NCBI GenBank assembly: GCA_004210715.1
Contig: SEDB01000012.1
Coordinates: forward strand, 1-44,570
From: Pedobacter sp.
GTDB taxonomy: Bacteria; Bacteroidota; Bacteroidia; Sphingobacteriales; Sphingobacteriaceae
Reading direction: 5' to 3'
Length of the DNA stretch: 44,570 nucleotides
Shown here one piece after another: positions 2,495 through 33,504 of this stretch (position 1 is its first letter; each line of letters opens with the position of its first letter). Under the pieces are notes generated by a model, which had not been told where the DNA came from, ran no database searches, and saw nothing but the letters and a program-made list of their open reading frames with translations. A program made the position numbers and the translations under genes.

Positions 2495-5400
2495 TTAGAA
2501 ACTAGCGTTAATTCCAAATACAAAACCTCTGTTGAATGTTGATCCACCCAAATCAGGGTCAATCCAACTTACGTTTGAGTAAATCAAACCTGGGTTAATT
2601 ACCTGGGCATAAACTCTTAAGCGAGATAACGTTAATTTTTTAGCCATGTTAGCCGCAAAATTATAACCCAACGAGATATTTCTTATTTTAATGAAAGAGG
2701 CATCTTGATAATTTAAGGCACTAATGTACTGATCTCCACTTGCACTTGCATAGTTAGGTGCCGGATAAGAATTTGTTGGGTTGGTTGGTGTCCAATAATC
2801 TACAACTCGTTGTGCAAAACGACCTTGAAGAGCCTCTGCGCCTGTCTGAATTAAGAAGTTATAACGAGCTACAATGAAAATAGATAAATCAAAACCTTTA
2901 TAACCAAATGTGTTGGTCAAACCACCAGTCCAGCTAGGGTTGTAATGTCCTAAAACCTGACGGTCGTTGTTGGCATCAATTCTGTAATCGCCATTTAAAT
3001 CTCTTACTTTCACGCTACCTGGTGCAAACCAACTGGTACGTGCTGCAATGTTCGCGTTAAATTTGGCCATCTCCGCTAAATCTTCAGGAGTATTTTGCCA
3101 AATGCCTTCTTTCACAAAATCGTAAGCCACGCCATTTCTTTGTCCGATAAAGAAACGATCGTTAACCATATCGCCATTGTCTAGTTTCACAATCTCATCC
3201 TTACTCATAGAGAAGTTCAACGTCGATTCCCAGCTAAAATCATCCGACTTTACGTTAACACTATTGATGGTTAAATCAAGTCCTTTGTTTTTGGTAGAGC
3301 CAACATTATCATAAGAGGTGGTATAGCCATTAACTGAAGCAATTTTCTTAAGTAAAATTAAATCGGTTGTTTTAGATTTATAAAGGTCTAAAGATCCACT
3401 GATTCTGCCTTTTAGTGTACTGCCAATGTCAACTGATGAGTTACCCGTGCTACCTACTCCAAGTCTTAATTTTAATTGGTTAACCCATTTAATATCTTTC
3501 ATGAAATCTTCTTGCTCTAATCTCCAGGCCAATGCTGCAGAAGGGAAGAAATCCCATTTATTGCCAGCCGCAAGCTGTGAGGCACCATCCCAACGGGCAG
3601 AAGCTGTTAGTAAATATTTGCTGTTCCAGCTATAGTTTGCTCTGGCCATGTATGATACTAGTGTAGATCTTCTCAAATCGGTATTGAAACCATCTAAACC
3701 TGTAATATTTGCTGTATTTAAACCATACCAAAGAGAATTTGGTAACGAAATTTTACTGCCGGTTAACGAAGAAGATTCTTCTCTGAAAGAAGATGAACTT
3801 TGTAATAAGGTTACACCAAAATTATGTTTGTTAATGGTTTTGTCGTAATAAAGTAAGTGATCTAAGGTATAGGCAAATCTGCTACTTTGGTTTAACTGGG
3901 CATAATTATTAATTGATCCCGGTACACCAGCATCGCGGTTAACTGATTTAGCATCCTGATATCTTCCGTTGTAATAATTTGAAAAATCCGGGCCGAAGTT
4001 AACACGGTATTTCAAATCTTTTAAAATATTAACTTCTGCAAAAACAGAACCTAAAGTTCTTAATGTTTTACGAAGGTTAATATTGTAGTCAGCCTCTAAA
4101 ACTGGGTTTTGAATATTGATATCACCACCAGGTAAATTGATTCTATTTCCATTGGCATCAAAAGGAATAGCTAAAGGAAGCATACCTCTTGCTGCGAAAT
4201 AAATACTGCTGGCGCCTGAAGCACTCGCTGCCTGGAAGCCGTAGTTTTGTAATCCGTAAGTTGCAGTAAGGTTGGCGCCCATTTTAAACCATTTAACCGG
4301 ATTAACTTCAATGCTCAGTTTTCCACTGTAACGTTCAAAATCCTGACCTAACTGTGTTCCTTCCTGGTTTAAATAACCAAATGAACCATAAGCTTTAATT
4401 TTGTCGGTACCACCGCTCACACTCAAAACATGATCTTGTGTTACGCCCGTTCTGGTTACTAAATCACCCCAATCGGTTGTTGGAACTAAACTTCCATCAA
4501 AAACACCATTAACCCAGCCCTTATCTAAGTTGGTAAGCATATTAGGATCCTGCTTGAAAATCTCTCTATCAGCTGCTTGTGTGGCCACGATAGGATAATT
4601 ATAGATTGGTGTAGTAGTTGTACCATTTACCGAGTTTAGGTAAGCCGTTCTACGATACGCATCGCGACGAAAATCAATATACTGTCCTGAGTTCATCATT
4701 TCGGCCCTATCATTGAGTGTTTCAATAGTCGCCGTACCTACATAATCTAAAGTCAATCTTCCTGCTTTACCTTTTTTAGTGGTTACCAAAACTACTCCAT
4801 TTGCACCCCTCGATCCGTAGATTGCAGTTGCAGAAGCATCTTTTAGGATGTCGATCGTTTCAATATCGTTCGGATTAATCGCTTCAATACCACCTGCCTG
4901 AAGTGGAATTCCATCAACCACATATAGCGGCGAGTTGCTAGCTGTTAATGATCTTACTCCACGGATCAATATACTGCCCAATTGTCCTGGTCGCTCATTT
5001 GAGGTAATATCAACACCTGCGGCTTTACCTTGAATGGCTTGTAAGGCATTGGTTACCGGTCTTGATCTGATTTCTTCAGCACCCACACTTACTACCGCTC
5101 CAGTTAAATCGCTTTTCTTAACGGTGTTGTACCCCACGATTACAACTTCATCAAGATCATTAATGGAACTTTTTAATTGAACAGCGATAGTCGTTTTTCC
5201 GCTAACCGGAACCTCTTGTGTAACGTAACCAACATAAGTTACCACTAATACAGGATCAGTAACTGTTGACGGAATGTTAATTGAAAAAGCACCATTCGCA
5301 TCAGTTGTAGTTACCAGCGATGTTCCTTTTACTTTGATAACTACGCCAACGAGGGTTTCTCCTTTATCGTCAGTAATTTTTCCTTTTAAAGTTACATCAA

Positions 5401-5572
5401 GCTTTTTGCTATTCTTTGCGAAAAACACCTTTACATTTTCGGCGCCTGTTGTCGCAGAAACGGTTGTACTCATGAGCATAAATGACAAAGCAGAGGCACC
5501 CATAATCAGGAACTTTTTTCTGCCGGAAGCATTTAGCCGATGATTTGATTTTGATTGGAAATTCAAATACAT
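2495..5572 (-). CDS. SusC/RagA family TonB-dependent outer-membrane transporter, probable internal barrel deletion
   Basis: TonB-dependent importer paired with SusD. From the chosen ATG at 5572 the protein has 1025 residues; the frame opens 13 codons earlier, but this start puts the signal segment (KKFLIMGASALSFMLMSTTVSA) in the normal place. A carboxypeptidase-regulatory-like domain follows (VTLKGKITDDKGETLVGVVI), then the TonB box and plug (DEVVIVGYNTVKKSDLTGAV; NPNDIETIDILKDASATAIYGSRGANGVV), then the barrel, with the usual C-terminal block ending in phenylalanine. Near base 3420 the protein passes from GVGSTGNSSVDIGSTL straight to KGRISGSLDLYKSKTTDL. Relatives usually have several dozen residues here, including the NP(D/N)LxWE motif, which I cannot find. 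The reading frame is intact. Confidence 0.9.
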   Translation of the reverse strand: MYLNFQSKSNHRLNASGRKKFLIMGASALSFMLMSTTVSATTGAENVKVFFAKNSKKLDVTLKGKITDDKGETLVGVVIKVKGTSLVTTTDANGAFSINIPSTVTDPVLVVTYVGYVTQEVPVSGKTTIAVQLKSSINDLDEVVIVGYNTVKKSDLTGAVVSVGAEEIRSRPVTNALQAIQGKAAGVDITSNERPGQLGSILIRGVRSLTASNSPLYVVDGIPLQAGGIEAINPNDIETIDILKDASATAIYGSRGANGVVLVTTKKGKAGRLTLDYVGTATIETLNDRAEMMNSGQYIDFRRDAYRRTAYLNSVNGTTTTPIYNYPIVATQAADREIFKQDPNMLTNLDKGWVNGVFDGSLVPTTDWGDLVTRTGVTQDHVLSVSGGTDKIKAYGSFGYLNQEGTQLGQDFERYSGKLSIEVNPVKWFKMGANLTATYGLQNYGFQAASASGASSIYFAARGMLPLAIPFDANGNRINLPGGDINIQNPVLEADYNINLRKTLRTLGSVFAEVNILKDLKYRVNFGPDFSNYYNGRYQDAKSVNRDAGVPGSINNYAQLNQSSRFAYTLDHLLYYDKTINKHNFGVTLLQSSSSFREESSSLTGSKISLPNSLWYGLNTANITGLDGFNTDLRRSTLVSYMARANYSWNSKYLLTASARWDGASQLAAGNKWDFFPSAALAWRLEQEDFMKDIKWVNQLKLRLGVGSTGNSSVDIGSTLKGRISGSLDLYKSKTTDLILLKKIASVNGYTTSYDNVGSTKNKGLDLTINSVNVKSDDFSWESTLNFSMSKDEIVKLDNGDMVNDRFFIGQRNGVAYDFVKEGIWQNTPEDLAEMAKFNANIAARTSWFAPGSVKVRDLNGDYRIDANNDRQVLGHYNPSWTGGLTNTFGYKGFDLSIFIVARYNFLIQTGAEALQGRFAQRVVDYWTPTNPTNSYPAPNYASASGDQYISALNYQDASFIKIRNISLGYNFAANMAKKLTLSRLRVYAQVINPGLIYSNVSWIDPDLGGSTFNRGFVFGINASF

Positions 5573-5883
5573 GGTTTTTATAATGTTGATTAAAATTTGG
5601 TTAGTGTGCAATCAATGAATAGTACAACTTCAACTAATATTTTACTTTTTCGCTAATCCTAACTATTTTAATGAAATAAGGATTTTGGTGACAAGCCGAA
5701 AGTTAGTCATTGATGCAATTTATATACTTGGTTAAAATTCATACGAGATTAGCAGTTTTAATTAATTATTCCATCCTGTTCCATCCTGTAGTAATGTTTG
5801 AATTTTGCATTTAGATGATATTGTGGTATATCAATAAAGTCAGCAAACGATGCCAATAGTTTAGTATTGGGATTTAAAGGCAT
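5573..5883. other. Intergenic region upstream of susC
   Basis: About 310 bases between the tRNA terminator and the susC start. It is AT-rich and must hold the susCD promoter, but I see no clear TTG / TAnnTTTG pair on the minus strand. No gene for an ECF sigma factor, anti-sigma factor or SusR-like hybrid sensor is present here or just upstream, so local control of this susCD pair is not visible. A 41-codon minus-strand frame starting at 5883 lies wholly after the tRNA terminator and resembles nothing I know; I do not call it a gene. Confidence 0.5.
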
Positions 5884-6218: not shown

Positions 6219-6482
6219 TTCTCCAGTAATTGCTTGTAAGTTAAGTCTTTATTTGTTATAACGAGTAAATAATTACTGTTTGTCGATACTGAAGATTATC
6301 TATCAATGATGTTTGAATTGTAAATTTGAATGAGCAGGTTACTCCTTGAAGTCAGATCAGCGACTTTTTGTAAAATTTAGTGTAATTTTATAATCAATAT
6401 GAAAAACAATTTTGGTTAAAAAGTATTTAAAGAAAATGCATTTCTTCCAAACAAATAATTTATTTCAACAGACAACACATTC

Positions 6483-7700: not shown

Positions 7701-9742
7701 TGGTTAAAATGATTGAAACATTTTTTTTCAACAGAGATTTAAGCTGGCTGAAATTTAACGAAAGAATTATCATGGAAGCAGAACGAGGTTCGGTTCCTTT
7801 GTTGGAGAGAATTAAGTTCCTGTCGATATTTTCTTCAAATCTTGATGAGTTTTACCGCGTACGGATGCCTGTGCTTTTGGCATTGGAGAAGTTGAGCAAC
7901 CGGGAAGATAATGATATTCATATTGAAGAAGATTTATTGAAAAAAGCGAATCAGTTAATATCTGATCAGCAGCAACGTTTCGGAAAAACTTTGAAATTGA
8001 GCATCATTCCTGCCTTAAAGGAAAATCATATCAATTTAATTTACGGACATGGTTATCCCGAAGAGATACAAAAACCCATTACGCAATACTTTTTGAGTCA
8101 GGTTTTGGCTTTTTTGCAGCCAGTTTACCTTGATGAAAACACTGATTTTTTCCCGGCAAACAATGAATTATATTTTCTCATTACTTTTAAGCGAGAATCG
8201 GGCTCAAAAACTGTTATTCTAAATATTCCATCAAATGAGTTGCCACGTTTTTATAAAGTAGAAACCCAGGAAGAAACGTTTGTTGTTTTTTTGGATGATA
8301 TTATCCGTTTCCATTTGGATCGTATTTTTCCAAATGACGAAGTTTTGGGGTGTTTTAGCTTTAAAATTACAAGAGATGCAGAGATTGATTTAAAAGATGA
8401 ATATTCCGGAAGTTTATCCGAGCAATTGGAAAAGCAATTGCAGAAACGTGATTTAGGCTTGGCTACACGTTTCTTGCATCAGCCAGGAATTCCAACTGAC
8501 ATTTTAACTTTGGTTAAGAAAATTTTCAATCTAAAAAAAGCCAACAATATTGAAGGTGGGCAATACCACAATCTTAAGGATTTGATGGCTTTTCCAATAA
8601 AATCTGACAAACTTTCAAACGATTCGTGGCCGAAAATATGCAATACAAATCTTATTGACGGTACATTAACGGAGGCAATTTATAAAAATGATATCATCGT
8701 TCATACGCCATACCAAAGTTACGATAGCGTTTTGCGATTTTTTAATGAGGCCGCAATTGATGAAACCGTTAAAGAAATATATGTTACGCTTTATCGCGTG
8801 GCCAGTGATTCAAAAATTGTAAATGCTTTAATCAGTGCTGCTAAAAACGGAAAAAAAGTAACGGTTTTAGTGGAATTAAAAGCCCGTTTCGATGAGGCAA
8901 ACAACATCAAGTGGGCGAAGAAAATGAAAGCCGTTGGTGTCGATATCATCTACAGCGTAACAGCACTAAAAGTACATGCCAAGGTTGCTTTGGTAAAACG
9001 GAAAGTTGATGGCAGAATGCGTTATGTCGGCCTATTCGCAACCGGCAATTTTAATGAAACTACTGCAAGTTTTTATACCGATCATATTTTAATGACCGCC
9101 AATAAGGAAATGCTTCGCGAAGTAGAATTGCTTTTTATTTTCCTGGCCAAACGCACAAAACCTAATGCAGAAAATTTTATAAAATTTGATGAGTTATTGG
9201 TGGCGCAGTTTAATCTGCAGCAAACTTTTATCTCGCTAATTGATCGGGAAATTGGGTTTGCCAAACAAGGTAAAGCAGCTTCGATTACCATCAAAATGAA
9301 TAATCTCGAAGAAAAAATATTGATCAATAAGCTTTATGAAGCCTCTCAGGCGGGTGTGAAGATAGAAATGATGGTTAGGGGAATTTGCCGCCTGATTCCT
9401 AGTGTAAAAGAAATGAGTGAGAACATCAAAGTTATCAGAATTGTAGACCGGTATTTAGAACATGGTCGGGTTTTTGTTTTCAATAACCTGGGTAAAGTGG
9501 ATGTGTATTTGGGCTCTGCCGACTGGATGAACAGAAATATTTATCGCCGGATTGAGGTTTGCTTTCCCATTTACGATCAGAAAATAAAACAAGAAATTTT
9601 AGACATCATCAATATTCAAAAACAAGACAATACACAAGCTGTCATTATTGATGAGCTTATGAACAATGTGCCGGTTAAAGTGGGCGAAACCCTGGTTTCG
9701 TCACAGCATGCTATCTATCAGTATTTAAAAAACAAGAATTAA
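7700..9742 (+). CDS. ppk1: Polyphosphate kinase 1
   Basis: Makes long-chain polyphosphate from ATP, reversibly, usually at the inner membrane face. At 680 residues it has family-normal length. The N-terminal domain begins FNRDLSWLKFNERIIMEA and contains FLSIFSSNLDEFYRVRMP, both PPK1 signatures. The head region is followed by the first catalytic domain (IYVTLYRVASDSKIVNALI; VELKARFDEANNIKWAK) with ALKVHAK, where His426 matches the autophosphorylated His435 of E. coli. The second catalytic domain has YLEHGRVFVF with His588, matching His592, and LGSADWMNRNIYRRIEVCFP. The start codon overlaps the preceding stop by one base, and the next gene begins 11 bases after its stop, so it sits inside an operon with a membrane HD protein and two exported proteins. 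No exopolyphosphatase gene is nearby. Confidence 0.96.
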   Translation: MVKMIETFFFNRDLSWLKFNERIIMEAERGSVPLLERIKFLSIFSSNLDEFYRVRMPVLLALEKLSNREDNDIHIEEDLLKKANQLISDQQQRFGKTLKLSIIPALKENHINLIYGHGYPEEIQKPITQYFLSQVLAFLQPVYLDENTDFFPANNELYFLITFKRESGSKTVILNIPSNELPRFYKVETQEETFVVFLDDIIRFHLDRIFPNDEVLGCFSFKITRDAEIDLKDEYSGSLSEQLEKQLQKRDLGLATRFLHQPGIPTDILTLVKKIFNLKKANNIEGGQYHNLKDLMAFPIKSDKLSNDSWPKICNTNLIDGTLTEAIYKNDIIVHTPYQSYDSVLRFFNEAAIDETVKEIYVTLYRVASDSKIVNALISAAKNGKKVTVLVELKARFDEANNIKWAKKMKAVGVDIIYSVTALKVHAKVALVKRKVDGRMRYVGLFATGNFNETTASFYTDHILMTANKEMLREVELLFIFLAKRTKPNAENFIKFDELLVAQFNLQQTFISLIDREIGFAKQGKAASITIKMNNLEEKILINKLYEASQAGVKIEMMVRGICRLIPSVKEMSENIKVIRIVDRYLEHGRVFVFNNLGKVDVYLGSADWMNRNIYRRIEVCFPIYDQKIKQEILDIINIQKQDNTQAVIIDELMNNVPVKVGETLVSSQHAIYQYLKNKN

Positions 9743-9753
9743 ATTTCCAACCG

Positions 9754-10659
9754 ATGAACAAGAATAAAACAAAAATAGCGACTGTTGTCGCATTAATGGC
9801 TTTGGCTTTTGCAGGTGTTTCATGTGTAAATGAAAAACACGATGACAAGACAGTAACAACTGAAGGAACTGCTCAGAATACTGCCAAAAAATCTGATTTG
9901 CCTTACGACTTAGAGAATCCTGAAAAATATAACATGCCGCAAAACCTGTTCGAAATTTCAGGAATTGTTTTTCATAAGGGCGATCCAAGCAAGGTTTTTG
10001 CTATTCAGGATGAAGATGGAGATTTATTTTACTTAGGTTTAAAGGATAAAGAATCCAAGTTTACCAAATTTGGTGGAAAAGGTGATTATGAGGATTTAGC
10101 AATCATTAATGATCAGATTGTGGTGCTGAAAAGTAATGGAGAATTGCATACTTTCCCCATTTCGGAAATCAACAAACCTGAAGCGGCGAATGTAATTAAA
10201 ACAAAAGATTTAGTGCCAAAAGCAGAATATGAAGGACTCGCAGCTGATGAAAAAACCGGGATTGTTTATGTGTTAACGAAAGAGGTAAAGAAAGGAAAAA
10301 AAGATGAAACAGAAATTTTTGCCTTTAAGTTTGATGGAGGTAAATTTACGCCGAGCGGAACTTTTGCTTTATCATCTAAAGAAATCGCTGATTTGGCAGG
10401 CGAATCCAAATTAAAGTTTCGTCCATCGGCTTTGGCTAAAAATCCTTCAACAGGAGAGTGGTATGTACTTTCTTCAATGAATAAATTACTGGTGGTTACC
10501 GATGCAGATTTTAAAATTAAAGCAACTTATCCATTAAAAGGAAGTTTTTTCAATCAGCCTGAAGGAATTGCTTTTGATCGGGACAATAATCTTTACATCT
10601 CTAACGAGGGTGGAACTTTATCTGCAGGAAACATCTTAATGTTTAAGCTTAAAAAGTAG
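9754..10659 (+). CDS. SdiA-regulated-type (YjiK-like) beta-propeller lipoprotein
   Basis: A 301-residue exported protein. The signal peptide ends FAGVSC with lipidated Cys24. After an acidic/Thr-rich linker, the motif YDLENPEKYNMPQNLFEISGI and the following strands (VFAIQDEDGDLFYL; GDYEDLAIINDQIVVLKSNG; EYEGLAADEKTGIVYVLTKE; FRPSALAKNPSTGEWYVLSS; NQPEGIAFDRDNNLYISNEG) match the SdiA-regulated family, a beta-propeller fold with repeated E-G/D-L-A and PEG-I-A-F-D blade motifs. The family's function is not established; the propeller resembles calcium-binding lactonase or phytase-like folds only in general shape. It follows ppk1 by 11 bases and precedes the phosphoesterase-barrel gene by 39, pointing to a shared surface or periplasmic role. 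Confidence 0.8.
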   Translation: MNKNKTKIATVVALMALAFAGVSCVNEKHDDKTVTTEGTAQNTAKKSDLPYDLENPEKYNMPQNLFEISGIVFHKGDPSKVFAIQDEDGDLFYLGLKDKESKFTKFGGKGDYEDLAIINDQIVVLKSNGELHTFPISEINKPEAANVIKTKDLVPKAEYEGLAADEKTGIVYVLTKEVKKGKKDETEIFAFKFDGGKFTPSGTFALSSKEIADLAGESKLKFRPSALAKNPSTGEWYVLSSMNKLLVVTDADFKIKATYPLKGSFFNQPEGIAFDRDNNLYISNEGGTLSAGNILMFKLKK

Positions 10660-10698
10660 TCAGCCGAAAATTATCTATATTTATACAAACGCCAGGCT

Positions 10699-13600
10699 AT
10701 GATTAAAAGATTTACCCTTTTAGCAATTTTATTTTTTATACATTTTATCACTTTTGCACAAAGTGATGTCAAATATCGGGTCATTCTTTTTGGGGATGCA
10801 GGAGAAATGAATCCTGCCCAGATGCAGGATTTGAAAAATGCTGCCAAGCAGATTATTCCTAAAAAAACCACAGTAATTTATCTTGGCGATAATATTTACC
10901 CAACCGGAATGGGCTTGCCAGGCAGTATTGAGGAGGAGGAAACCAAGAAAATACTTCGTTCACAATTTGAACCCATGCGAAAAGCCGGGGCACCAGTTTA
11001 TTTTATTCCTGGTAATCACGATTGGGATAAGTCTGGACCGAAAGGTTTAGCAAAAATTAAGGCACAGGATGATTTTTTGAAAGCCCAGGGCGATCCATTA
11101 CTAAAATTAATCCCTGATAATGGCTGTCCAGATCCGGTAGCAATTAAGCTCACGGATAAGCTGACCATTATTGCCTATGATAGTGAATGGTGGTTATTTC
11201 CATATAATAAATCAAATTCTGCTGGAGAGTGTGAATGCAATACCAAGGATGAGGTTTTAGTTAAAATGGAACAGCTTTTGGAACAAAATAAGGACAAAGT
11301 AATTTTGCTTGCTTCGCACCATCCATTTCAAAGCTATGGACCGCATGGTGGCTATTTCAACTTGCGCAATCACTTGTTTCCATTAACATCATTGAGTAAA
11401 AATCTTTATATTCCGATGCCAGTTTTGGGCTCAGTTTATCCTTTTTTGAGGTCAACACTTTTAAGTCCTGAAGATTTAAATCATCCAGCTTATAAAGACA
11501 TGATCAGGTCAGTCAATGGTGTCTTTGGAGATTATCCGAATGTAACTTACGTCGCCGGTCATGAACATGGTTTGCAGTTGATTAAAGGAAAACAGCTTCA
11601 AATTGTTAGTGGTTCAGGTTCTAAAGTATCGCCTAATAAGCAAGGTAAAACTTCATTGTTTCATGAGATGCAACAGGGTTACGTGGTTGCGGATCAGCTG
11701 ATGAATAATGACATGCGTTATGAATATTACGTGTATTCAGATACCAGTGTGAAAAAAGTTTATAGTTATACCAAGAAATTTGAGTTGTTGCCAACAAAAG
11801 TAAGGAACAGAGATAAGCCAATTACAGCTGATAGTATTTTTGTTAAAATTAAACCAGAGTATGATAGCGTAGGGCGATTCCATAGATATGTTTTTGGCGA
11901 AAATTACCGTAAAGAATATGCTGAACGTACAAAAGTTCCGGTATTAAGGGTTTCAAAAATGATGGGTGGTTTAAAAGCTACTCAGCGTGGTGGCGGAAAT
12001 CAATCTCGCTCATTGCGTCTGGAAGATAAAGATGGGAAAGAATATGTGTTGCGAAGTGTAGAAAAATTTCCCGAAGTTCTACTGCCAGAAGGATTACGCA
12101 ATACTTTTGCCAAGGACATCATCAAAGATAATATGTCTGCACAGCATCCGTTTTCGGCTTTGGTAGTGCCAGAATTGGCGAAAGCAGCAAAAATTCCACA
12201 TACTAATCCCATTATTGGTTGGGTTTCTCCTGATGATGGTTTAGGAGAATTTGAATCCGCCTTTGCAAATACCTTATGCCTGTTTGAAGAACGCGAGCCT
12301 GTTGGCGAATCAGACAGTTCTCCAAAAATGGATAAGAAATTGACAGATGATAACGATAATAAATTAGATGGTCCGGGTTGGGTAAGGGCAAGAGCTTTGG
12401 ATGTTTTACTTGGCGATTGGGATAGGCATGAAGACCAGTGGCGTTGGAAAGAAACCAAAACTAAAGATGGTTCCACTTACACGCCTGTTCCACGAGATAG
12501 GGATCAGGTTTTTTATATGGGAGATGGTAAATTACAACGTTTTACGCAATCATCATCATTGTTGCCGATGATGCAGGGATATGAACGGCCAATCCAAAAT
12601 ATCAATTGGTTTTTATGGGAAGGTAGAGAAATCAGCAGTCGTTGGACAGCCAATATTGATGAAGCTGAATTCGATAAAATTATAAAGGATTTTTGCGCTA
12701 ATTATAATGATGAAGTTTTTGAAAGGGCTTTAAAAAAGCTTCCAGAGCCAAGTTATTCCCTACATCACGATGTATTTTTAGCAACGATGCGTGAGCGTAT
12801 TGCCAACATGCCGAAGATGATGAATGAGTATTATCATTTCTTCAACCGAATTGTGGACATCGAAATGACCAACAAACATGAGCTAATTAAAATAAGTGAT
12901 ACGGATGATAGTGGCTTGAGAGTTAAAATCAATAAAATATCAAAAGAAGGAAATATTAAGGAAGAACTGTTCGATCGGAAATTTGATCCAAAAGTAACAA
13001 AGGAACTTCGTGTTTACATGCACAATGGAAACGACAGCCTTATTTTGGATAATGAAAAATCGGATATCAAGATTCGCATCATCGGCGGAAAAGGAACAAA
13101 GTATTACGATTTTGCCAATAGTAACGGTACTGTTAAATTATACGGTAGAACCGATAAGGCTACTTATGATGGTGAAGCGCAGAATAAGATTAGGAAAATT
13201 ATTTCAAATGATACTGCAAATTTCAGTTATATTCCAAAGGATATGTACCGCAGGAAATCTTACAATTTGAATGCAGGATACAACCGTGATGACGGAATTT
13301 TACTGGGGTTGATTTACAAGCAAACTAATCCGGGTTTCAGAAAACAACCTTGGGGAAATTCGCAAACGTTTTCTTTTTTACATTCATTTTCTACTAAAGC
13401 ATTTCGATTTAATTATAAAGGCGAGTGGTTAAAGGCGATTGGAAAAGGAGATGTTGTGGTAAATGCAAATGCTTATGCACCAAATAACACGCAAAATTTC
13501 TTTGGCTTAGGAAACGACACCCATTTTGATGAGCATGGCGATGATATTCGCTATTATCGTGCTCGCTTCAATCTGTATCAGGTTGATGCTGCAATTAGGT

Positions 13601-14304
13601 GGCGCCGCCCTAAATCAACCTTTTCAGTAGGACCATCCTATCAATATTATAAGTTCAACAGGGAAGATAATGAAGGTAGGTTTATTTTAAATCCAGGCGC
13701 TTTGCATTCTTCTGACAGCCTGACAGTTAGAAATGAGAAGATGTTTGCTGGAGCAATCGTAAATTTTACGAATAATACCCGTGACAATGACTTATTACCT
13801 ACGCTTGGAAGTTATGTCGATTTTAAATTATTGGGTTATAAAGGGGTAAACAAATATTCAAACTCAATTGGGCAGTTCACAGCAAGTATTTCGCTTTATA
13901 AAAATCTGGATGGCCGGAAGAAATTTATTCTCGCAGATCGATTTGGTGGAGGGGTAACCGTAGGACAACCGGCATTTTACCAGGCATTGTATTTAGGTGG
14001 GCAAGGAAATCTTCAGGGATACCGCCAATTTAGGTTTGCAGGTGAGCACATTTTTTACAATAATTTGGAGTTAAGAGCTAAGCTTGGCGATTTGGTAAGC
14101 TACGTTTTACCCGGACAAATTGGCTTATCGGGTTTTTGGGATGTAGGAAGAGTTTGGAAAAGGAACGAAGCTTCACAAACATGGCATCACGGTGTCGGTG
14201 GAGGGGTTTATTTTGCACCAGCATCACTTACAGTTGTTCGATTTGTGATGGGACATTCATCAGATGGATGGTATCCTTACTTCTCACTAAATTTTAGGTA
14301 CTAA
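10699..14304 (+). CDS. Metallophosphoesterase / kinase-like / outer-membrane barrel fusion protein
   Basis: A 1201-residue exported protein with signal peptide (residues 1-21). Residues 22-300 are a calcineurin-like phosphoesterase with all motifs: GDAG (32-35), GDN (63-65), GNHD (105-108), SHHPF (about 206) and GHEH (about 286). Residues about 395-720 look kinase-like: a glycine-rich stretch, a strand KEYVLRSVEKF (about 446-457), GDWDRHEDQW with Asp575-Arg576-His577, and PRDRDQVF with Asp600/Asp602. This DRH...DxD arrangement recalls FAM20/CotH/HipA-type kinases; the reading is my inference. Residues about 853-1201 form an Omp85/surface-antigen-like barrel (LGGQGNLQGYRQFRFAGEHIFYNNLELR) ending in an aromatic BAM signal. 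It is the last gene of the ppk1 cluster. The two soluble domains would lie in the periplasm or at the surface; substrates are unknown. Confidence 0.85.
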   Translation: MIKRFTLLAILFFIHFITFAQSDVKYRVILFGDAGEMNPAQMQDLKNAAKQIIPKKTTVIYLGDNIYPTGMGLPGSIEEEETKKILRSQFEPMRKAGAPVYFIPGNHDWDKSGPKGLAKIKAQDDFLKAQGDPLLKLIPDNGCPDPVAIKLTDKLTIIAYDSEWWLFPYNKSNSAGECECNTKDEVLVKMEQLLEQNKDKVILLASHHPFQSYGPHGGYFNLRNHLFPLTSLSKNLYIPMPVLGSVYPFLRSTLLSPEDLNHPAYKDMIRSVNGVFGDYPNVTYVAGHEHGLQLIKGKQLQIVSGSGSKVSPNKQGKTSLFHEMQQGYVVADQLMNNDMRYEYYVYSDTSVKKVYSYTKKFELLPTKVRNRDKPITADSIFVKIKPEYDSVGRFHRYVFGENYRKEYAERTKVPVLRVSKMMGGLKATQRGGGNQSRSLRLEDKDGKEYVLRSVEKFPEVLLPEGLRNTFAKDIIKDNMSAQHPFSALVVPELAKAAKIPHTNPIIGWVSPDDGLGEFESAFANTLCLFEEREPVGESDSSPKMDKKLTDDNDNKLDGPGWVRARALDVLLGDWDRHEDQWRWKETKTKDGSTYTPVPRDRDQVFYMGDGKLQRFTQSSSLLPMMQGYERPIQNINWFLWEGREISSRWTANIDEAEFDKIIKDFCANYNDEVFERALKKLPEPSYSLHHDVFLATMRERIANMPKMMNEYYHFFNRIVDIEMTNKHELIKISDTDDSGLRVKINKISKEGNIKEELFDRKFDPKVTKELRVYMHNGNDSLILDNEKSDIKIRIIGGKGTKYYDFANSNGTVKLYGRTDKATYDGEAQNKIRKIISNDTANFSYIPKDMYRRKSYNLNAGYNRDDGILLGLIYKQTNPGFRKQPWGNSQTFSFLHSFSTKAFRFNYKGEWLKAIGKGDVVVNANAYAPNNTQNFFGLGNDTHFDEHGDDIRYYRARFNLYQVDAAIRWRRPKSTFSVGPSYQYYKFNREDNEGRFILNPGALHSSDSLTVRNEKMFAGAIVNFTNNTRDNDLLPTLGSYVDFKLLGYKGVNKYSNSIGQFTASISLYKNLDGRKKFILADRFGGGVTVGQPAFYQALYLGGQGNLQGYRQFRFAGEHIFYNNLELRAKLGDLVSYVLPGQIGLSGFWDVGRVWKRNEASQTWHHGVGGGVYFAPASLTVVRFVMGHSSDGWYPYFSLNFRY

Positions 14305-14358
14305 ATTTGTGTAACATCAATATAGATGTTTGATCCAACTATTACGTTTTGCAGACTA

Positions 14359-14386
14359 TTGTTGCTTTACATAGTGCTTATCTTTG
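14359..14386 (+). promoter_or_regulatory. Probable Bacteroidota-type promoter for the GAF gene
   Basis: TATCTTTG at 14379-14386 fits the TAnnTTTG -7 consensus exactly, with TTG at 14359-14361 as a -33 element; the spacing of 17 is slightly short of the usual 19-21. It would give a leader of about 50 bases before the start at 14445. Confidence 0.5.
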
Positions 14387-14444
14387 CAAAGAGTTAGTAA
14401 TGAATCTATAACTATAAAATTTACACTATAGCAAAACTTATACA

Positions 14445-16856
14445 ATGAATACCAACGTAATAAAAATACATAAAAATGAATGTATAGGTTGCCAGGTAGA
14501 ATCTTCTCTGTCTTTTTCTCCCCTTGTGAAATATCTAAAGGATAGATTAAAAACAGAAAAATCGGTAAAATCTGAATTTTACAGATTCCTGTTACAGAAA
14601 ATTGAAAAAGATGAGGTGCTCTTAAATAGCATCAGTGCCAACGAGCTTGTTAAATATAAAGATACTTTAGAATTAATTTTTACCATCCTTACACCATTAA
14701 TGGACAATGAGGATGATTTTTTCTGGGCATTGAGCACACCTATTCCTGATGAGATTTTCTTCAGTACAAACGCATTTTATCAATTTTTTAAAGACCACGA
14801 TCCTAAAAGTAAAGTGGGCAAGGATAGTGAGCCTGTTGAAAAAAAACAGCTTAAATTTATTTACAACATCATTTTAAATCGTTTCTACAATTTCAGTTAT
14901 GTACTTAAAAACGAAATTATTTATGCGCATGTAAACGAAGAAACAAAGCTTACCCAATATTACAACATACAAACGGATACTAAATTCGTTGATATTAAGC
15001 ATAAAGGTAAGTTGCCTGAACTCAACTTTGAGGAACTTGCTCAACACTTTCAAGAAGATAATGAGTTGGAGTATCTGTTGAATAATCTACCGTTGAAAGA
15101 TTTCTCATTTGATGGCTTCAGTATTATTTCAATAACCGATGTTACTTTGCAGCATTCTATTGATGGCATTCGCGACGCTTTGGTTAATCATAATTATCAA
15201 ACTGAAGCTTACACTCATGTAATACAAGCTTTAAAAAGTTTAAGTGGTAATGGCGATTTAGAATTTGGTTTAATGCCGTTTTTAACCGTCAACAATAAAC
15301 TTGTTTTCGATAATAAGGAGTTTTCGCAAAGTATGCTGATCAATTCAGCAAAAGCGGCAAAACTTGAAGAAGAAGTTTTTTATTCACTGGTAGATAAATA
15401 CAAGGAAAATCCCAAGGCGATTTTTGTAAGCGCTATTAATGATGATCAGATTACAAAAGATCCATTTTTAAGGGTGTTGAAAGCCGCTGGTGTGTGTTCA
15501 TATTCCGTATTGCCTGTTTATTACAATAATCAGCTTGCTGGCGTTTTAGAGGTTTACTCTGATCACGAAGTGCTTGTTGATGATAAATTGTTATCAAGAT
15601 TGCGTCCGGCAATGCCACTGATTGGTCAGCTGTTTCAATATAGTATTGAGGAGTTTGATGCAAAAATGGATGAGGTTTTGATGGATAAGTTCACTGCCTT
15701 ACAACCTTCAGTTCAGTGGAAATTCAATCAAGCGGTATGGCAATTTCTACAAGGTAGTGCTCGTAATAAAGTTAAAGAAATCGAGACGGTTACCTTTAAA
15801 AATATGTATCCTTTATTTGGTGCTGTTGATATACGTAACTCTACTACAGAAAGAAATAAAGCCTTAAAAGATGATTTAAATGTGCTTCTAAATCATTTAA
15901 TTGATGCTTTGAAAGCCATGAAGAAAACAGTTAAATTGGATTTAATTGATAAGCTCTTATTTAACTGTAAAGATTGGATTAAGCAAATCGGAAGTTTCGC
16001 TTCCTCCAATGAAGAGAATCAGTTAAGGGAGTTTTTAGAAATGGAAGTTTACCCATTTCTTTCTATCATAAAAGGTAATCATCCCGAAACGGCTGAAATT
16101 GTTGATCAATATTTTGAAGTAATTGTACCGGCAACAGGTGCAGCTTATGCCAATCGCAGGCAACTAGAGGTTTCAATGCAATTGATTAATACTGAGGTTA
16201 GCCAGTATTTGGAAAAATCTCAGGCAAATTTGCAGGCATCATATCCCTGCTATTTTGCTAAATTCCGGACTGATGGCGTAGAATATGATATTTACATTGG
16301 GCAGGAAATTGCACCTGAGAAACCATTTGATTTGTTGTACTTAAAGAATATTCGATTGTGGCAACTTACCTCTATGGTAGATATTGCTCGTTTGTCAAAG
16401 GGATTAATTGGCGAAATGCCTCGTCCGTTAGAAACCACACAGTTGATTTTTATACACTCCAATGCAATAGACATTAGCTTTAGAAATGACGAACGTAGAT
16501 TTGATGTGGAAGGTGCTTACAATATTCGCTACGAAGTTGTTAAGAAACGAATTGACAAAGTGCTGATTAAAGGTACAAATGAGCGTTTAACTCAGCCACA
16601 TAAAATCTCAATGGTTTATTTTAATCCAGATGAGCAAAAAGAATACACAGAGTATATTAAATATATGCAAGTTCAAGGTTATTTAAATGATGATTTAGAA
16701 TTGCTTGATTTGGATGAACTACAAGGTGTTTCCGGTCTTAAGGCTTTAAGGGTTGGTGTGAAATATTTGGATGCAAAGAAAGATGCGACTAAAAAGCTTA
16801 AACCTACTGAGCTGAAATCAATTGAAAAAGAGATTGCTAAAATGTTGCAGAACTAA
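14445..16856 (+). CDS. Large GAF-domain-like cytosolic protein of unknown function
   Basis: 803 residues, without signal peptide or membrane segments. The N-terminal 30 residues carry Cys14 and Cys17. Residues about 320-405 (AIFVSAINDD..., SYSVLPVYYNNQLAGVLEVYS) have the strand pattern of a GAF sensor domain. Directly after comes a helical segment and, at about 456-472, LFGAVDIRNSTTERNKAL, which resembles the opening strand of class III nucleotide cyclases (F-x-D-I-x-x-S-T) but lacks the remaining cyclase motifs. The C-terminal third is a conserved-looking alpha/beta region (YDIYIGQEIAPEKPFDLLYL; YNIRYEVVKKRIDKVLIKG). Such proteins are common in Bacteroidota and generally annotated only as GAF-domain proteins. 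It is monocistronic, with its own promoter and terminator. Ligand and output are unknown. Confidence 0.75.
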   Translation: MNTNVIKIHKNECIGCQVESSLSFSPLVKYLKDRLKTEKSVKSEFYRFLLQKIEKDEVLLNSISANELVKYKDTLELIFTILTPLMDNEDDFFWALSTPIPDEIFFSTNAFYQFFKDHDPKSKVGKDSEPVEKKQLKFIYNIILNRFYNFSYVLKNEIIYAHVNEETKLTQYYNIQTDTKFVDIKHKGKLPELNFEELAQHFQEDNELEYLLNNLPLKDFSFDGFSIISITDVTLQHSIDGIRDALVNHNYQTEAYTHVIQALKSLSGNGDLEFGLMPFLTVNNKLVFDNKEFSQSMLINSAKAAKLEEEVFYSLVDKYKENPKAIFVSAINDDQITKDPFLRVLKAAGVCSYSVLPVYYNNQLAGVLEVYSDHEVLVDDKLLSRLRPAMPLIGQLFQYSIEEFDAKMDEVLMDKFTALQPSVQWKFNQAVWQFLQGSARNKVKEIETVTFKNMYPLFGAVDIRNSTTERNKALKDDLNVLLNHLIDALKAMKKTVKLDLIDKLLFNCKDWIKQIGSFASSNEENQLREFLEMEVYPFLSIIKGNHPETAEIVDQYFEVIVPATGAAYANRRQLEVSMQLINTEVSQYLEKSQANLQASYPCYFAKFRTDGVEYDIYIGQEIAPEKPFDLLYLKNIRLWQLTSMVDIARLSKGLIGEMPRPLETTQLIFIHSNAIDISFRNDERRFDVEGAYNIRYEVVKKRIDKVLIKGTNERLTQPHKISMVYFNPDEQKEYTEYIKYMQVQGYLNDDLELLDLDELQGVSGLKALRVGVKYLDAKKDATKKLKPTELKSIEKEIAKMLQN

Positions 16857-18377: not shown

Positions 18378-19685
18378 TTACCGATTCAGCGTAGGCTCGT
18401 AAGTATCTGTGTTTACGGTCGCTTTCAGCTCATGTAATATTTGGTATAAGCCGAAGTTGGTGCGGTTAACATAAATAAAATGTTTTACGCCACGAGCCTG
18501 CTTAAATTCTTGCATTTTCGAAATCTTTTCTCCGTAAGCATACAACTGATCGAAAAATTCAGGTTTACTGAAATCAAAAATCTTACTGAGGTATGGTTTG
18601 GCAAAAAGGCTGATCATTTCTCTGTAAGATTTGTAATAAAACTCAATCTGTTCATCCGAATCATCCGAATGAATCATTTCCAGTTTTCTAAAAGCCTCAA
18701 TTGTTTTCTGTTTGTCGTTAATTACATCGGTAGAAATTAAAGAGAAAAAAGGATAGTAAAAGTCATTTGGCATTTCCTTAATACAACCAAAATCAATCAC
18801 ACCCAAATCTTCGTTAGGGGTAATCATAAAGTTTCCTGGATGTGGATCAGCATGCACTGCTCTTAACTCATGCTGTTGAAAATTATAGAAATCCCATAAA
18901 GCCTGACCGATTTTGTTTCTTAACTCTTGCGACGGATTGGTATTTAAGAACTCCTTTAAATGTAATCCATCAAGCCAATCCATCGTAATGATTCGCTTTC
19001 CAGATAATTCTGGATAATATTTTGGAAAAACAACATGATCCAAATTCTGGCAATCTTCCGAAAATTGAATCGATCTTCTTACTTCCAATTCGTAATCTGT
19101 TTCTTCCAGCAAACGTTCTTCAACCTCTTTAATATAAATGTTCAATTCCCTTTCAGACATTCCAAGTAATCGAAAAGCAAAGGGCTTTACCAATTTTAAA
19201 TCTGATGAAATACTATCGCCAACTCCAGGATATTGAATTTTTATAGCCAGTTTTTTTCCGTCAAGCGTAGCTTGATGCACTTGGCCAATCGATGCAGCAT
19301 TGCTAGAATTAAGATTAAAAGTATCGAAAATCTGCTCTGGTGTTTTACCAAAGTTTTTGGTAAAAGTTCTCACAATAAGTGGTCCTGAAAGGGGAGGAGC
19401 ATTATATTGCGATTGCGTAAATTTATCAACATACGATTTTGGCAGGATATTTTTATCCATACTTAACATCTGTGCAATTTTCAAAGCACTGCCTTTTAGT
19501 TCGCTTAGCGATTTATAAATATCCGTAGCATTATCTTCATTCAATTGTTCCCGATCCATTTCTGGATTAAAAAGCTTTTTAGAATAATGTTTGATATAGT
19601 TGCCGCCAATTTGAAAACCTGTTTTCACAAATTTCGCTGAACGCTCAACTTTAGTAGTTGGAATACTCTGTTGTGTTTTCATCAA
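18378..19685 (-). CDS. AarF/ABC1/UbiB-family atypical kinase
   Basis: 435 residues of the UbiB/ADCK (ABC1) family of protein-kinase-like ATPases, linked in other organisms to quinone synthesis or lipid handling. The family features are present in order: a KxGQ-region counterpart (LKGSALKIAQMLS, about 63-75), the alanine-rich loop AASIGQVH (130-137) replacing the glycine-rich loop, the ATP lysine in LAIKIQYPGV (Lys149), catalytic loop HADPHPGN (278-285) and metal-binding DFG (298-300). The KxGQ element reads KIAQ, a variant. It follows a TetR-like regulator by three bases in one operon, which suggests membrane or envelope stress control; the actual substrate is unknown. No quinone-biosynthesis gene is nearby. 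Confidence 0.88.
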   Translation of the reverse strand: MMKTQQSIPTTKVERSAKFVKTGFQIGGNYIKHYSKKLFNPEMDREQLNEDNATDIYKSLSELKGSALKIAQMLSMDKNILPKSYVDKFTQSQYNAPPLSGPLIVRTFTKNFGKTPEQIFDTFNLNSSNAASIGQVHQATLDGKKLAIKIQYPGVGDSISSDLKLVKPFAFRLLGMSERELNIYIKEVEERLLEETDYELEVRRSIQFSEDCQNLDHVVFPKYYPELSGKRIITMDWLDGLHLKEFLNTNPSQELRNKIGQALWDFYNFQQHELRAVHADPHPGNFMITPNEDLGVIDFGCIKEMPNDFYYPFFSLISTDVINDKQKTIEAFRKLEMIHSDDSDEQIEFYYKSYREMISLFAKPYLSKIFDFSKPEFFDQLYAYGEKISKMQEFKQARGVKHFIYVNRTNFGLYQILHELKATVNTDTYEPTLNR

Positions 19686-22562: not shown

Positions 22563-25500
22563 ATGAAGCGAGCTGGATTATTAGCTTTACTAATATTTTT
22601 ATTGGTTTTAAAAAAATCTTATGCCCAAAATGTTTCTAATGAAGGGACAGATTTTTGGGCAGTTTTTCCTACACATGTTCCTAGCCAAAATAGTTTAGCT
22701 AATATTGCTGTTTTTGTTACTTCTAAATTTAATACTGAAGTTACTGTTAGTTGTGGAATATCATCTGAAACAAAAGTTATTCCGGCGAATACAGCAGTTC
22801 AGTTCAACGTTCAAAGAGCTTCAGCATATATAAATGAGTATGAATCGAATCTAAATTTGAGTAATAAAGGCATTCATATTAAAGTTAAAGATGGTATGCC
22901 AAAAGTTTCAGCTTATGCACACATATGGGGAAGGGCAAGATCAGCTGCATCGCTAATACTTCCTTTTGAAACATTGGGGCAAAACTATTACTCGATGAAT
23001 TATATGCAGTCTGTTGATGGTAAAAATTATTTGGCCGTTGTAGCGGTTGAAGATAATACCAGTATTTTACTTCATCAAAAAAATGGAATTGTTTTACCTA
23101 TAACTTTGGATAAAGCTGGAGATGTTTACGAATATATGTCTGGCAATAGCGATTTAACCGGCGTTTATGTTGAAACTGATAAAACAAAGTCATCTTGCAA
23201 AAGGTTTGCTGCATTTTCAGGGTCATCAGTAATCACGATTGGAGGTTGCACAGGTTCACAAGATCCATTGTATCAACAGCTTTATCCTACTGTAAGTTGG
23301 GGGCGGAATTATGGTATTGTGCCATTTAAAAATAGGAGATACATTTTAAGGATTTTGGCGCAAGAGGATAATACAACTTTTGCCATGAATGGTATTTCAG
23401 CTACCTTAAAAAAAGGGGAGTTTTACGAAAGTAATGTTTTGACACAATCCACATTTATTTCTGCTGATAAACTGATCAGTGTTGCACAGTATTCACTTAC
23501 GCAAAATTGTTCTTCAGTGAATGGAACTGCCATTATTGGCGATCCGGAGATGGTTATGCTAAATCCTGTTGAATTTAATATCAAAGCTGTAACCGTATTT
23601 TCATCTACTTTAGAATCCATTACTGAGCGATACATAAATGTTCTCATTAGAAGTACAAAGACTAGCTCATTTAAAATTAATGGAGTGATACCAAATACAA
23701 CTTGGTCGCCTCTAGATGGAAATGCATCTTATTCTTATGCTCAGATTCCAGTATTGGAAGAAAGTTTAACTTTAACCGCTGATGATGGTTTTAATGCAAT
23801 TGCGTATGGTTTTGGCAATGCCGAATCCTATTCTTATTCTGCTGGCACCAATTTATCATCGAATAATTATTTAACTGTAGTAGATGAAACCAGGAAAGAA
23901 GAAAGCCCCAATGGATGTATTGGACAGACCGTTGATTTTAAAGTTAATTTACCCTATCAGCCTGATCGCATTACATGGACTTTAGAAGGTGGAGTGCCAG
24001 AAACAATAGCCAATCCGGTTCCTGAAACTAAAACGGTAAACGGACAAACCACTTATGTTTATCGCTATCCGGTTAATAAAACATACACTCAAACAGGTGA
24101 ATATCATTTAGAAGTGGTAGCGCATATTCCAGCGAATGAGACTAATTGTATAACTGGTGATGTAACTACAAATTATGTATTTAATATTTACGATCTTCCT
24201 ATAACTGCTTTCGATGCCCAATTAACTAGTTGTGCTAATTCAGAAGTTCAATTTACAGATAAAAGTGATTCAAAAACGAAAGATTTTTCTATTACAAATT
24301 GGCTATGGGATTTTAGGGATGGAACGACTTCAACAGATCAAAATCCAAAACATAAGTTTGCCAAAGAAGGAAAATATAAGGTGTTATTAACAGTTAAATC
24401 TGGTACTGGATGTTATTCCGAGCCTGTTGAAAAAGAAATTGAAATTTTTCCTTTGCCAATTTCTGATTTTAAAGCACCGGTAGAAACCTGTATTAACACT
24501 GAAATTACCCTTCAAGATAAATCCAAGATAAGTAATCTGATTTCCATGAATACGATAAAAAATTGGAAGTGGGATTTTGGCGATGGTTCTCCATCATCAA
24601 CAGACCAAAATCCAAAGCATACGTATTCCAAAGTTGGAAAGTTTACTGTTTCATTGATTACGACATCAGCTAGAGATTGCGTTAGCGAGGAAAAAACAAT
24701 GGAAATTACGGTAAAAGAATTGCCTAAGGCTGGTTTTACCATGCCTGATATATGCTTAAAGGATGCTGTGGCAAATTTTGTGAACACAACTGTTAGCAGT
24801 GATGGATCATCTTCGGGGTTAACTTACGCATGGGATTTTGGCGATAAATATTTAACAGCAACCGATTTAATTAAAAACACTTCATCGGATAAAGATGGTA
24901 AACACACCTACACTAAAGCTGATGATTATAATGTGACCTTAACCATTACAAATAACAATGGTTGTGTTGATGTTTTAACACAAAAATTTACAGTGAATGG
25001 CTCCGTTCCAAGAGCGAATTTTGAAACTTTAGCTAGTAATACTTATTGTAGCAACACCATTATTTCCATCAAAAATACTTCGTCTGTAGATTTTGGAAAG
25101 GTGACTAAAATTGAAGTTTACAAAGATATAGTTAATGAGCCCCAACGTTTTGAAACTTTTGATTATCCTACGTCAGATCAGCAAATAGATTTAACTTACG
25201 AACCTTTTGGTATGCCTGCTACAAAAGAATATCAAATTAAAATTGTTGCATATTCAGGAGGTCAGTGTTCTGATTTTATCATCAAGCCTGTTATGGTAAA
25301 AGCATCGCCAATAATTACCGCGGATGAAATTTTACCTGTATGCGAAAATGATGGAAATGTAGTTATTAATCAATTTCATGAAACTTCAGGAGTGGTTGGT
25401 AATGGAGTATTTACAAGCGATGGAAAGGGTATGCAAGAGAATGGAACTTTTAATCCAAAAATTGCTGGCGTTGGTGTACATAATATTACAAAGGATACAG

Positions 25501-25838
25501 AATATACTTTAACAGTTACTACAAATCCTGATCGATGCACTGCTATCACAAGTGTATCGGTTCGCGTTTTACAATCTTTAAATCCCCCGAGTAGTTTTAC
25601 TCCTAATGGAGATGGGTATAATGATATATGGAATATTAAATATTTAGAAACCTATCCGCATGCTACTGTTGAAGTATTTAACAGAAATGGCAATCGAATT
25701 TTCTTCAGCAACGGATATAAGATCCCATTTGATGGAAATTATCAAAATGAACAACTTCCAGTTGGTGTTTATTATTATATTATCAATCCAAGAAATGGAA
25801 GAAAAACAGTTACTGGTCCGCTCACTATAATCAGATAA
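22563..25838 (+). CDS. Secreted IgGFc-binding-like / PKD protein with CHU_C (T9SS type B) C-terminus
   Basis: 1091 residues, exported (signal peptide 1-21, ending SYAQ). The N-terminal region (about 25-420; EGTDFWAVFPTHVPSQNS at its start) matches the IgGFc-binding-like N-terminal domain seen in Bacteroidota surface proteins. Three PKD-type domains follow: about 550-632 (WLWDFRDGTTSTDQNPKH), 633-720 (WKWDFGDGSPSSTDQNPKH) and 720-815 (YAWDFGD). The last 90 residues (PSSFTPNGDGYNDIWNIKYL; VEVFNRNGNRIFFS; LPVGVYYYII) are a CHU_C/gliding-motility-type sorting domain used by the type IX secretion system. It is thus likely secreted and surface-attached. The next gene is its PorP/SprF partner, two bases away. 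The binding target is unknown. Confidence 0.9.
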   Translation: MKRAGLLALLIFLLVLKKSYAQNVSNEGTDFWAVFPTHVPSQNSLANIAVFVTSKFNTEVTVSCGISSETKVIPANTAVQFNVQRASAYINEYESNLNLSNKGIHIKVKDGMPKVSAYAHIWGRARSAASLILPFETLGQNYYSMNYMQSVDGKNYLAVVAVEDNTSILLHQKNGIVLPITLDKAGDVYEYMSGNSDLTGVYVETDKTKSSCKRFAAFSGSSVITIGGCTGSQDPLYQQLYPTVSWGRNYGIVPFKNRRYILRILAQEDNTTFAMNGISATLKKGEFYESNVLTQSTFISADKLISVAQYSLTQNCSSVNGTAIIGDPEMVMLNPVEFNIKAVTVFSSTLESITERYINVLIRSTKTSSFKINGVIPNTTWSPLDGNASYSYAQIPVLEESLTLTADDGFNAIAYGFGNAESYSYSAGTNLSSNNYLTVVDETRKEESPNGCIGQTVDFKVNLPYQPDRITWTLEGGVPETIANPVPETKTVNGQTTYVYRYPVNKTYTQTGEYHLEVVAHIPANETNCITGDVTTNYVFNIYDLPITAFDAQLTSCANSEVQFTDKSDSKTKDFSITNWLWDFRDGTTSTDQNPKHKFAKEGKYKVLLTVKSGTGCYSEPVEKEIEIFPLPISDFKAPVETCINTEITLQDKSKISNLISMNTIKNWKWDFGDGSPSSTDQNPKHTYSKVGKFTVSLITTSARDCVSEEKTMEITVKELPKAGFTMPDICLKDAVANFVNTTVSSDGSSSGLTYAWDFGDKYLTATDLIKNTSSDKDGKHTYTKADDYNVTLTITNNNGCVDVLTQKFTVNGSVPRANFETLASNTYCSNTIISIKNTSSVDFGKVTKIEVYKDIVNEPQRFETFDYPTSDQQIDLTYEPFGMPATKEYQIKIVAYSGGQCSDFIIKPVMVKASPIITADEILPVCENDGNVVINQFHETSGVVGNGVFTSDGKGMQENGTFNPKIAGVGVHNITKDTEYTLTVTTNPDRCTAITSVSVRVLQSLNPPSSFTPNGDGYNDIWNIKYLETYPHATVEVFNRNGNRIFFSNGYKIPFDGNYQNEQLPVGVYYYIINPRNGRKTVTGPLTIIR

Positions 25839-32659: not shown

Positions 32660-32793
32660 TATTAAAAGAATAGAAATACGTCTTCCATCTGCCAACTTAA
32701 GTGAGTTAGGATGTGATTTTAAAAAGAATTACTACATTTGTTCTGCTGGAATTCCTTCGGAACTTTCAAATAAAAAATAAAAATCAAACAGAC

Positions 32794-32824
32794 TTGCATT
32801 TGTAGAGAAATCGCTTTATATTTG
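32794..32824 (+). promoter_or_regulatory. Promoter of the rpmH-rnpA-yidD group
   Basis: TTG (32794-32796), 20 bases, then TATATTTG (32817-32824): an exact Bacteroidota -33/-7 pair with ideal spacing. Transcription would start near 32830, about 36 bases before the rpmH ATG. Confidence 0.8.
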
Positions 32825-32865
32825 CACCTCTTAATTTTGAAATTATAATAAGATAATATACAGTC

Positions 32866-32961
32866 ATGAAAAGAACATACCAACCTTCGCAAAGAAAGAG
32901 AAGAAACAAACACGGCTTCCGTTTTATTATATCCATTTCGCATTTCTTACCTCTTTATTGA
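32866..32961 (+). pseudogene. rpmH: rpmH remnant: ribosomal protein L34, C-terminal part lost
   Basis: The frame begins MKRTYQPSQRKRRNKHGFR, exactly the conserved first 19 residues of L34. It then departs into FIISISHFLPLY and a TGA, whereas normal L34 continues for some 30 more residues rich in Arg, Lys and Ala. The lost part binds 23S rRNA in the large subunit. The sequence after HGFR is really rnpA coding sequence read in the wrong frame: the next frame there gives LLYPFRISYLFID. The DNA thus passes from mid-rpmH straight to the inside of rnpA. The promoter ahead is intact, so this is an interrupted gene, not an old relic. Confidence 0.85.
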
Positions 32962-33244
32962 TGAATCTGCTGAAGTTCCGGCTCAGGTGGTGATCAATGT
33001 TCCAAAGAAGAGGTATAAAAGAGCTGTAGATCGTAATCTACTTAAGCGCCGTATTCGCGAGGCTTATCGTTTACATAAAGAACAAGAGTTTTACAATCAA
33101 CTTCCTGCTGATAAAGGTTTGTTGCTTTTTTCTATTCAATTTGTTGGAAAGGAAAAGTATGAATTCACTTTTATTCAAAAAAAATTAATAGCTACTTTTA
33201 AACGGTTTAAAACTTTAATTCTTCCGAATGAAGTTCATCAATAA
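32921..33244 (+). pseudogene. rnpA: rnpA remnant: RNase P protein component, N-terminal part lost
   Basis: In this frame the sequence reads VLLYPFRISYLFIDE and continues through VVINVPKKRYKRAVDRNLLKR, with the RNR motif region (RNLLKRRIREAYRLHK) and a normal C-terminus. The first roughly 30 residues of RnpA are missing and no start codon lies before the homology. The nearest candidate is GTG 32987, which would leave only 85 residues and remove the N-terminal helix and central strands. RnpA binds RNase P RNA for tRNA 5' maturation and is normally essential. yidD overlaps its last 17 bases, the normal arrangement. Whether any functional RnpA is made depends on this junction being real. Confidence 0.85.
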
Positions 33245-33458
33245 AATTTTTGCTTGGTTTTTTTTAGGATTGATCAGGATTTATCAGTACGCCATTTCGC
33301 CGATGCTAGGCGCAAATTGCAGGTTTACGCCCACCTGTTCGCAATATGGAATGGAGGCTATTCGCAAACATGGTCCATTTAAAGGTGGCTGGCTCGCTTT
33401 AAAACGTATTGGTCGCTGTCATCCATGGGGAGCACACGGCCATGATCCTGTGCCATAG
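33228..33458 (+). CDS. yidD: Membrane protein insertion efficiency factor YidD
   Basis: 76 residues. [20 protein letters not shown] followed by [30 protein letters not shown] is the YidD signature with the Cys residues in [10 protein letters not shown], and the [15 protein letters not shown] end is typical. The protein is a small amphipathic membrane-associated helper of YidC-dependent insertion. It starts within the end of rnpA (17-base overlap), the usual rpmH-rnpA-yidD order. The gene itself is intact. Confidence 0.95.
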
Positions 33459-33504
33459 CGAATAAATTCTTTAAATCTCCTTACTCAAAACCCTCAACCT
33501 TTCT

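Follow-up and report, generated by a model that had tools for sequence, protein, structure and literature searches.

Does the apparent fusion of rpmH and rnpA in a Pedobacter genome reflect a biological event, or did it arise when the genome was assembled? The locus lies on a 44,570-nucleotide stretch of DNA, called the window here, which makes up the entire contig C512 of a draft genome; the draft, 78.22% complete, totals 4,186,806 bases spread over 756 contigs. The best named matches of the adjoining tsaB protein come from Pedobacter frigidisoli, Pedobacter sp. MC2016-05, and P. jeongneungensis (79–81% identity). From comparison with relatives of the same genus, we infer that the fusion is very probably an error of the draft assembly, in which a segment of about 245 bases was dropped, and that the rpmH–rnpA–yidD operon of the living organism is most likely an ordinary one. 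The features of the locus, together with the other gaps found inside genes of this draft, are listed in Table 1.

Table 1. Features of the rpmH–rnpA locus and gaps within further genes of this draft genome (own genome, G000). Positions refer to the window unless a contig is named; G024 and G007 are relatives used for comparison.
Feature	Position	Strand	Description
SusC gene (name presumed)	2495..5611	-	in-frame 159-base (53-codon) gap at 3412–3414
Large gliding-type protein (name presumed)	22563..25838	+	in-frame 219-base (73-codon) gap at 25474–25490, compared with G024 and G007
Conserved region 5′ of rpmH, presumed promoter	32750..32865	+	alignment with relatives
rpmH (L34), 5′ part	32866..32921	+	19 codons; Pfam L34 positions 1–19 of 44, 30 bits
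L34-frame ORF	32866–32961	+	31 amino acids: 19 normal L34 residues, 12 unrelated residues, then a stop at 32961
Joint	32921..32922	+	245 bases absent compared with G024 (alignments); 0 N in the window
rnpA remnant	32922..33244	+	lacks the start codon and about 26 N-terminal codons; Pfam RnpA positions 24–74 of 109, 38.1 bits
rnpA-frame ORF	32987–33244	+	85 residues, begins with GTG at 32987
yidD, intact (name presumed, from the ORF list)	33228..33458	+	overlaps the rnpA stop; inside a piece collinear with G024
Peptide-binding-like protein (name presumed from sequence)	G000:C560 1017–1026		217-base out-of-frame gap compared with G024
TPR-like gene (name presumed from sequence)	G000:C640 ~19453–19456		290-base out-of-frame gap compared with G024

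Profile searches of the own genome place both halves of the fusion above the curated Pfam cut-offs for L34 and RnpA, so that neither match is due to chance. The L34 domain (PF00468) is present with less than half of its full length, and RnpA (PF00825) lacks the N-terminal part of its domain as well as an in-frame start codon. The central conserved basic region of RnpA is retained, as seen from the profile match and from a basic stretch visible in the translation, the role of which we presume from general knowledge. The RnpA frame lies one base off the L34 frame and is open from about position 32870, with no ATG, GTG, or TTG ahead of 32987. Relative to G024, the L34 gene has lost 33 of its 52 codons and RnpA about 26, and the spacer is gone as well. 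These measurements bear out a preliminary description of the locus, which had placed the switch from the L34 start to the middle of rnpA, in another frame, at about 32920, and had estimated that 200–250 bases were missing, with about 30 codons gone from each gene in addition to the spacer. The overlap with yidD and the GTG-initiated frame of 85 residues are also present as described. The promoter had been called intact; conservation of the region 5′ of rpmH agrees with this, with identities of 83–99% for upstream pieces that also take in the 19 rpmH codons in genus relatives, and the promoter itself is only presumed.

The same description had proposed a comparison with close relatives, and these carry the segment that is missing here. 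When the genomic DNA of 32700–33500 was searched against 59 genomes, counting the own genome, 52 of them matched. Among the closest relatives, the match breaks into two pieces at a single place, the first ending at query base 222, which is position 32921 of the window, and the second starting between query bases 208 and 217. The protein families give a consistent picture: L34 was found in 58 of 60 genus genomes and spans positions 1–44 in all 57 genomes other than the own one, and RnpA was found in 141 of 145, with matches that start at profile position 1–3 in all 140 others and mostly end near 74–76, as in the own genome (74). Every matching relative has a single match for each family. A relative sharing the joint was sought with an exact 27-base probe across it, which had no match in a genome contig collection that may leave out the own genome and very near ones.

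If the assembly dropped the segment, unrelated genes of this draft should show other gaps of about that size, and such gaps were found, within a small sample. The sample consisted of 20 contigs of the own genome (121,533 bases) in addition to the window, with gene-level comparison to G024 for the window contig, C560, C600, and C640. Four further gaps inside genes, of 159, 219, 217, and 290 bases, were identified (Table 1). Over 83,882 aligned bases from four own contigs, the own sequence lacks 219, 159, and 217 bases inside genes as well as the 245 bases at the joint, the latter labelled as touching a gene because rpmH falls under the 100-codon limit of the script; the 290-base gap in C640 is a fifth, obtained in a separate comparison. 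The gaps of 245, 217, and 290 bases break the reading frame, and those of 159 and 219 bases keep it. Both in-frame gaps could be natural, especially the 219-base one, which lies in a less conserved stretch. The segment missing from the SusC gene is kept in five aligned orthologues, with flanks of 70–87% identity, and the nine closest orthologues listed (at least 67% identity) all split at the same residues.

Gaps of the reverse kind, in which G024 would lack a stretch inside a gene of the own genome, were absent over the same 83,882 aligned bases; two reverse rows, of 182 and 743 bases absent from G024, touch own open reading frames and were left out of the count. In 32,008 aligned bases of G007 and G024, no gap lies inside a gene in either direction, and four rows touch one. 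The comparison of G024 with four named relatives, over about 8 kb each, and with a further relative, G030, over 4.8 kb, likewise showed no gap inside a gene, with two rows touching one; the chaining rule behind these counts had overlooked the gap in C560, and the own contigs and G007 were analyzed with a revised rule. Contig C600, of which 6.5 kb aligned with G024, has no such gap and differs by one of 18 residues only, and the search with C680 against G024 returned scattered pieces only. Own gaps of 62 to 875 bases that lie between genes or touch gene edges were not counted. Two own gaps, of 466 and about 900 bases, look like natural differences by sequence comparison, as these stretches are also absent from G007 (464 and 905 bases). 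Five own gaps against none in the reverse direction is a suggestive contrast for a sample of this small size.

Two other features were seen on the contigs compared. Positions 6264–15289 of G000:C600, about 9 kb, have no counterpart between two neighbouring pieces of G024 and form a possible island. On the minus strand of the window, positions 3–350 hold a fragment that we take from its sequence to be transposase-like and that runs off the contig start.

Of the three explanations offered in the preliminary description, the loss of a segment by the assembly is the best supported, given the gaps of 159–290 bases in other genes of the draft. The assembly would have dropped the DNA from the last part of rpmH across the spacer into the first part of rnpA, and would then have written both flanks side by side without Ns. 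This may have happened when scaffold gaps were closed or trimmed, or through a local misjoin. The joint itself bears on the route. Fourteen aligned relatives carry CTTCTTTTTT at the place where the window has CTTCCGTTTT. Judged from these relatives, whose sequence stands in for the lost sequence of the own genome, no exact shared base spans the joint, and the only resemblance is an imperfect CTTC match. A short TTCCGT repeat had been put forward as the mechanism of a deletion, and this idea finds no support, since the repeat does not occur on the incoming side in the 14 relatives. The lack of overlap argues against a plain k-mer misjoin, and the closing or trimming of scaffold gaps would suit such a joint.

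The strongest competing explanation, itself unlikely, is a real and recent deletion in the sequenced strain or in part of its population, through which L34 would be lost and RnpA would either start with the GTG at 32987 or no longer be produced. The sequence as given does show the joint, and the failure of a plain k-mer misjoin to explain it counts against an assembly error; similar-size gaps in unrelated genes count against a deletion. Purifying selection on the rnpA remnant is a further argument against a deletion. For the stretch of 107 codons between the joint and the stop codon, comparison with G024 gave a dN of 0.071 and a dS of 0.82, a ratio of about 0.09. Such a ratio reflects a long history; it can neither date the loss nor tell an artefact from a deletion that happened very recently. 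Three pairs of intact rnpA genes have ratios of 0.09–0.13 (for example, 0.172/1.31 for G024 and G007). These values show that, through most of its history, rnpA has been constrained by purifying selection to a normal degree, and the marks of this selection reach up to the joint.

The expected need for RnpA also weighs against a real deletion. The own genome contains a class A RNase P RNA (189 bits, model positions 20–307 of 367), which indicates that the organism keeps the RNA enzyme served by RnpA. A solved RNase P protein, 1nz0, presumably from T. maritima, aligns weakly through its residues up to 28 with the part of RnpA lost here (E 0.0042). A published account of RNase P numbers rnpA and rnpB among the genes that bacteria need to live, and presents Aquifex, which has neither gene, as the surprising exception (PMC10941002). 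If the deletion were real, the locus would call into question whether a complete RnpA is needed.

One relative might seem to favour a real deletion over an artefact. G030, a Pedobacter draft of 99% completeness, is also without L34, RnpA, or any match to 32700–33500. It has tsaB, and the contig that carries it (G030:C114) ends 376 bases past this gene. These last 376 bases match neither yidD nor rnpA and contain no long open frame, and the idea that the contig end cuts through this operon was dropped on this ground. The missing genes are likely a gap of that draft. The 145-genome profile search also gave no RnpA match in G035, G138, and G141, in addition to G030, and all four were considered as candidates for a natural loss; for tsaB, the first three have only weak matches elsewhere (27–33% identity), so this gene, too, seems to be absent from their drafts as far as sequence searches can tell.

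It is very unlikely that the C-terminal half of L34 and the N-terminal part of RnpA are genuinely gone from this Pedobacter lineage and that it lives on an RnpA of 85 residues or on the RNase P RNA alone. Tolerance of a broken L34 and a short RnpA had been one of the options initially considered; it is opposed by the purifying selection, the RNase P RNA, and the gaps in unrelated genes described above, and nothing was found in its favour. Still more improbable is that the locus is a duplicate decaying without harm while the genome carries intact rpmH and rnpA at another place. Pfam searches with L34 and RnpA, which answer the earlier proposal to look for further copies, each returned this place only in the own draft, which at 78% completeness could be missing a second copy. 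Against a duplicate stand this single place per family, the single match per genome in every matching relative, and the position of the fragment between a response regulator and tsaB, the same place as in G024. The suggestion of an intact copy elsewhere is thus unsupported by the draft sequence.

With the dropped segment as the preferred reading, the fusion itself is probably of little biological importance. Its interest lies in the draft, which appears to lose stretches of about 160–290 bases without Ns, at a rate of roughly one per 17 kb in the stretches examined (5 in about 84 kb). Where this draft appears to show a lost, fused, or in-frame shortened gene, reads are needed before the finding is accepted.

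The locus can finally be compared with known systems. A new overlap as in Thermus, in which rpmH would lie within rnpA in another frame and both proteins would be made, can be practically discounted: although the RnpA frame meets no stop in the L34 part, it lacks a start codon until 32987, and the L34 frame runs into a stop after 31 residues, short of the C-terminal half of that protein. In Thermus, according to the published description, rnpA contains the whole of rpmH, and a single initiation site serves both genes (PMC9841429). The likeness is that the RnpA frame crosses the rpmH part out of frame; the difference is that neither protein is complete here, with half of L34 gone, and assignment to this nested type was rejected in view of the missing complete frames and common initiation site. 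Short local deletions, a kind of misassembly in draft genomes, are similar to the locus in that gaps of comparable size occur within unrelated genes of the same draft and were unseen inside genes of the compared relatives. With the ordinary Pedobacter rpmH–rnpA–yidD operon, the locus shares the gene order, the upstream region, the yidD overlap, and the remaining rnpA codons, and it differs from that operon by the 245 bases, from the end of rpmH through the spacer to the start of rnpA, which the operon has.
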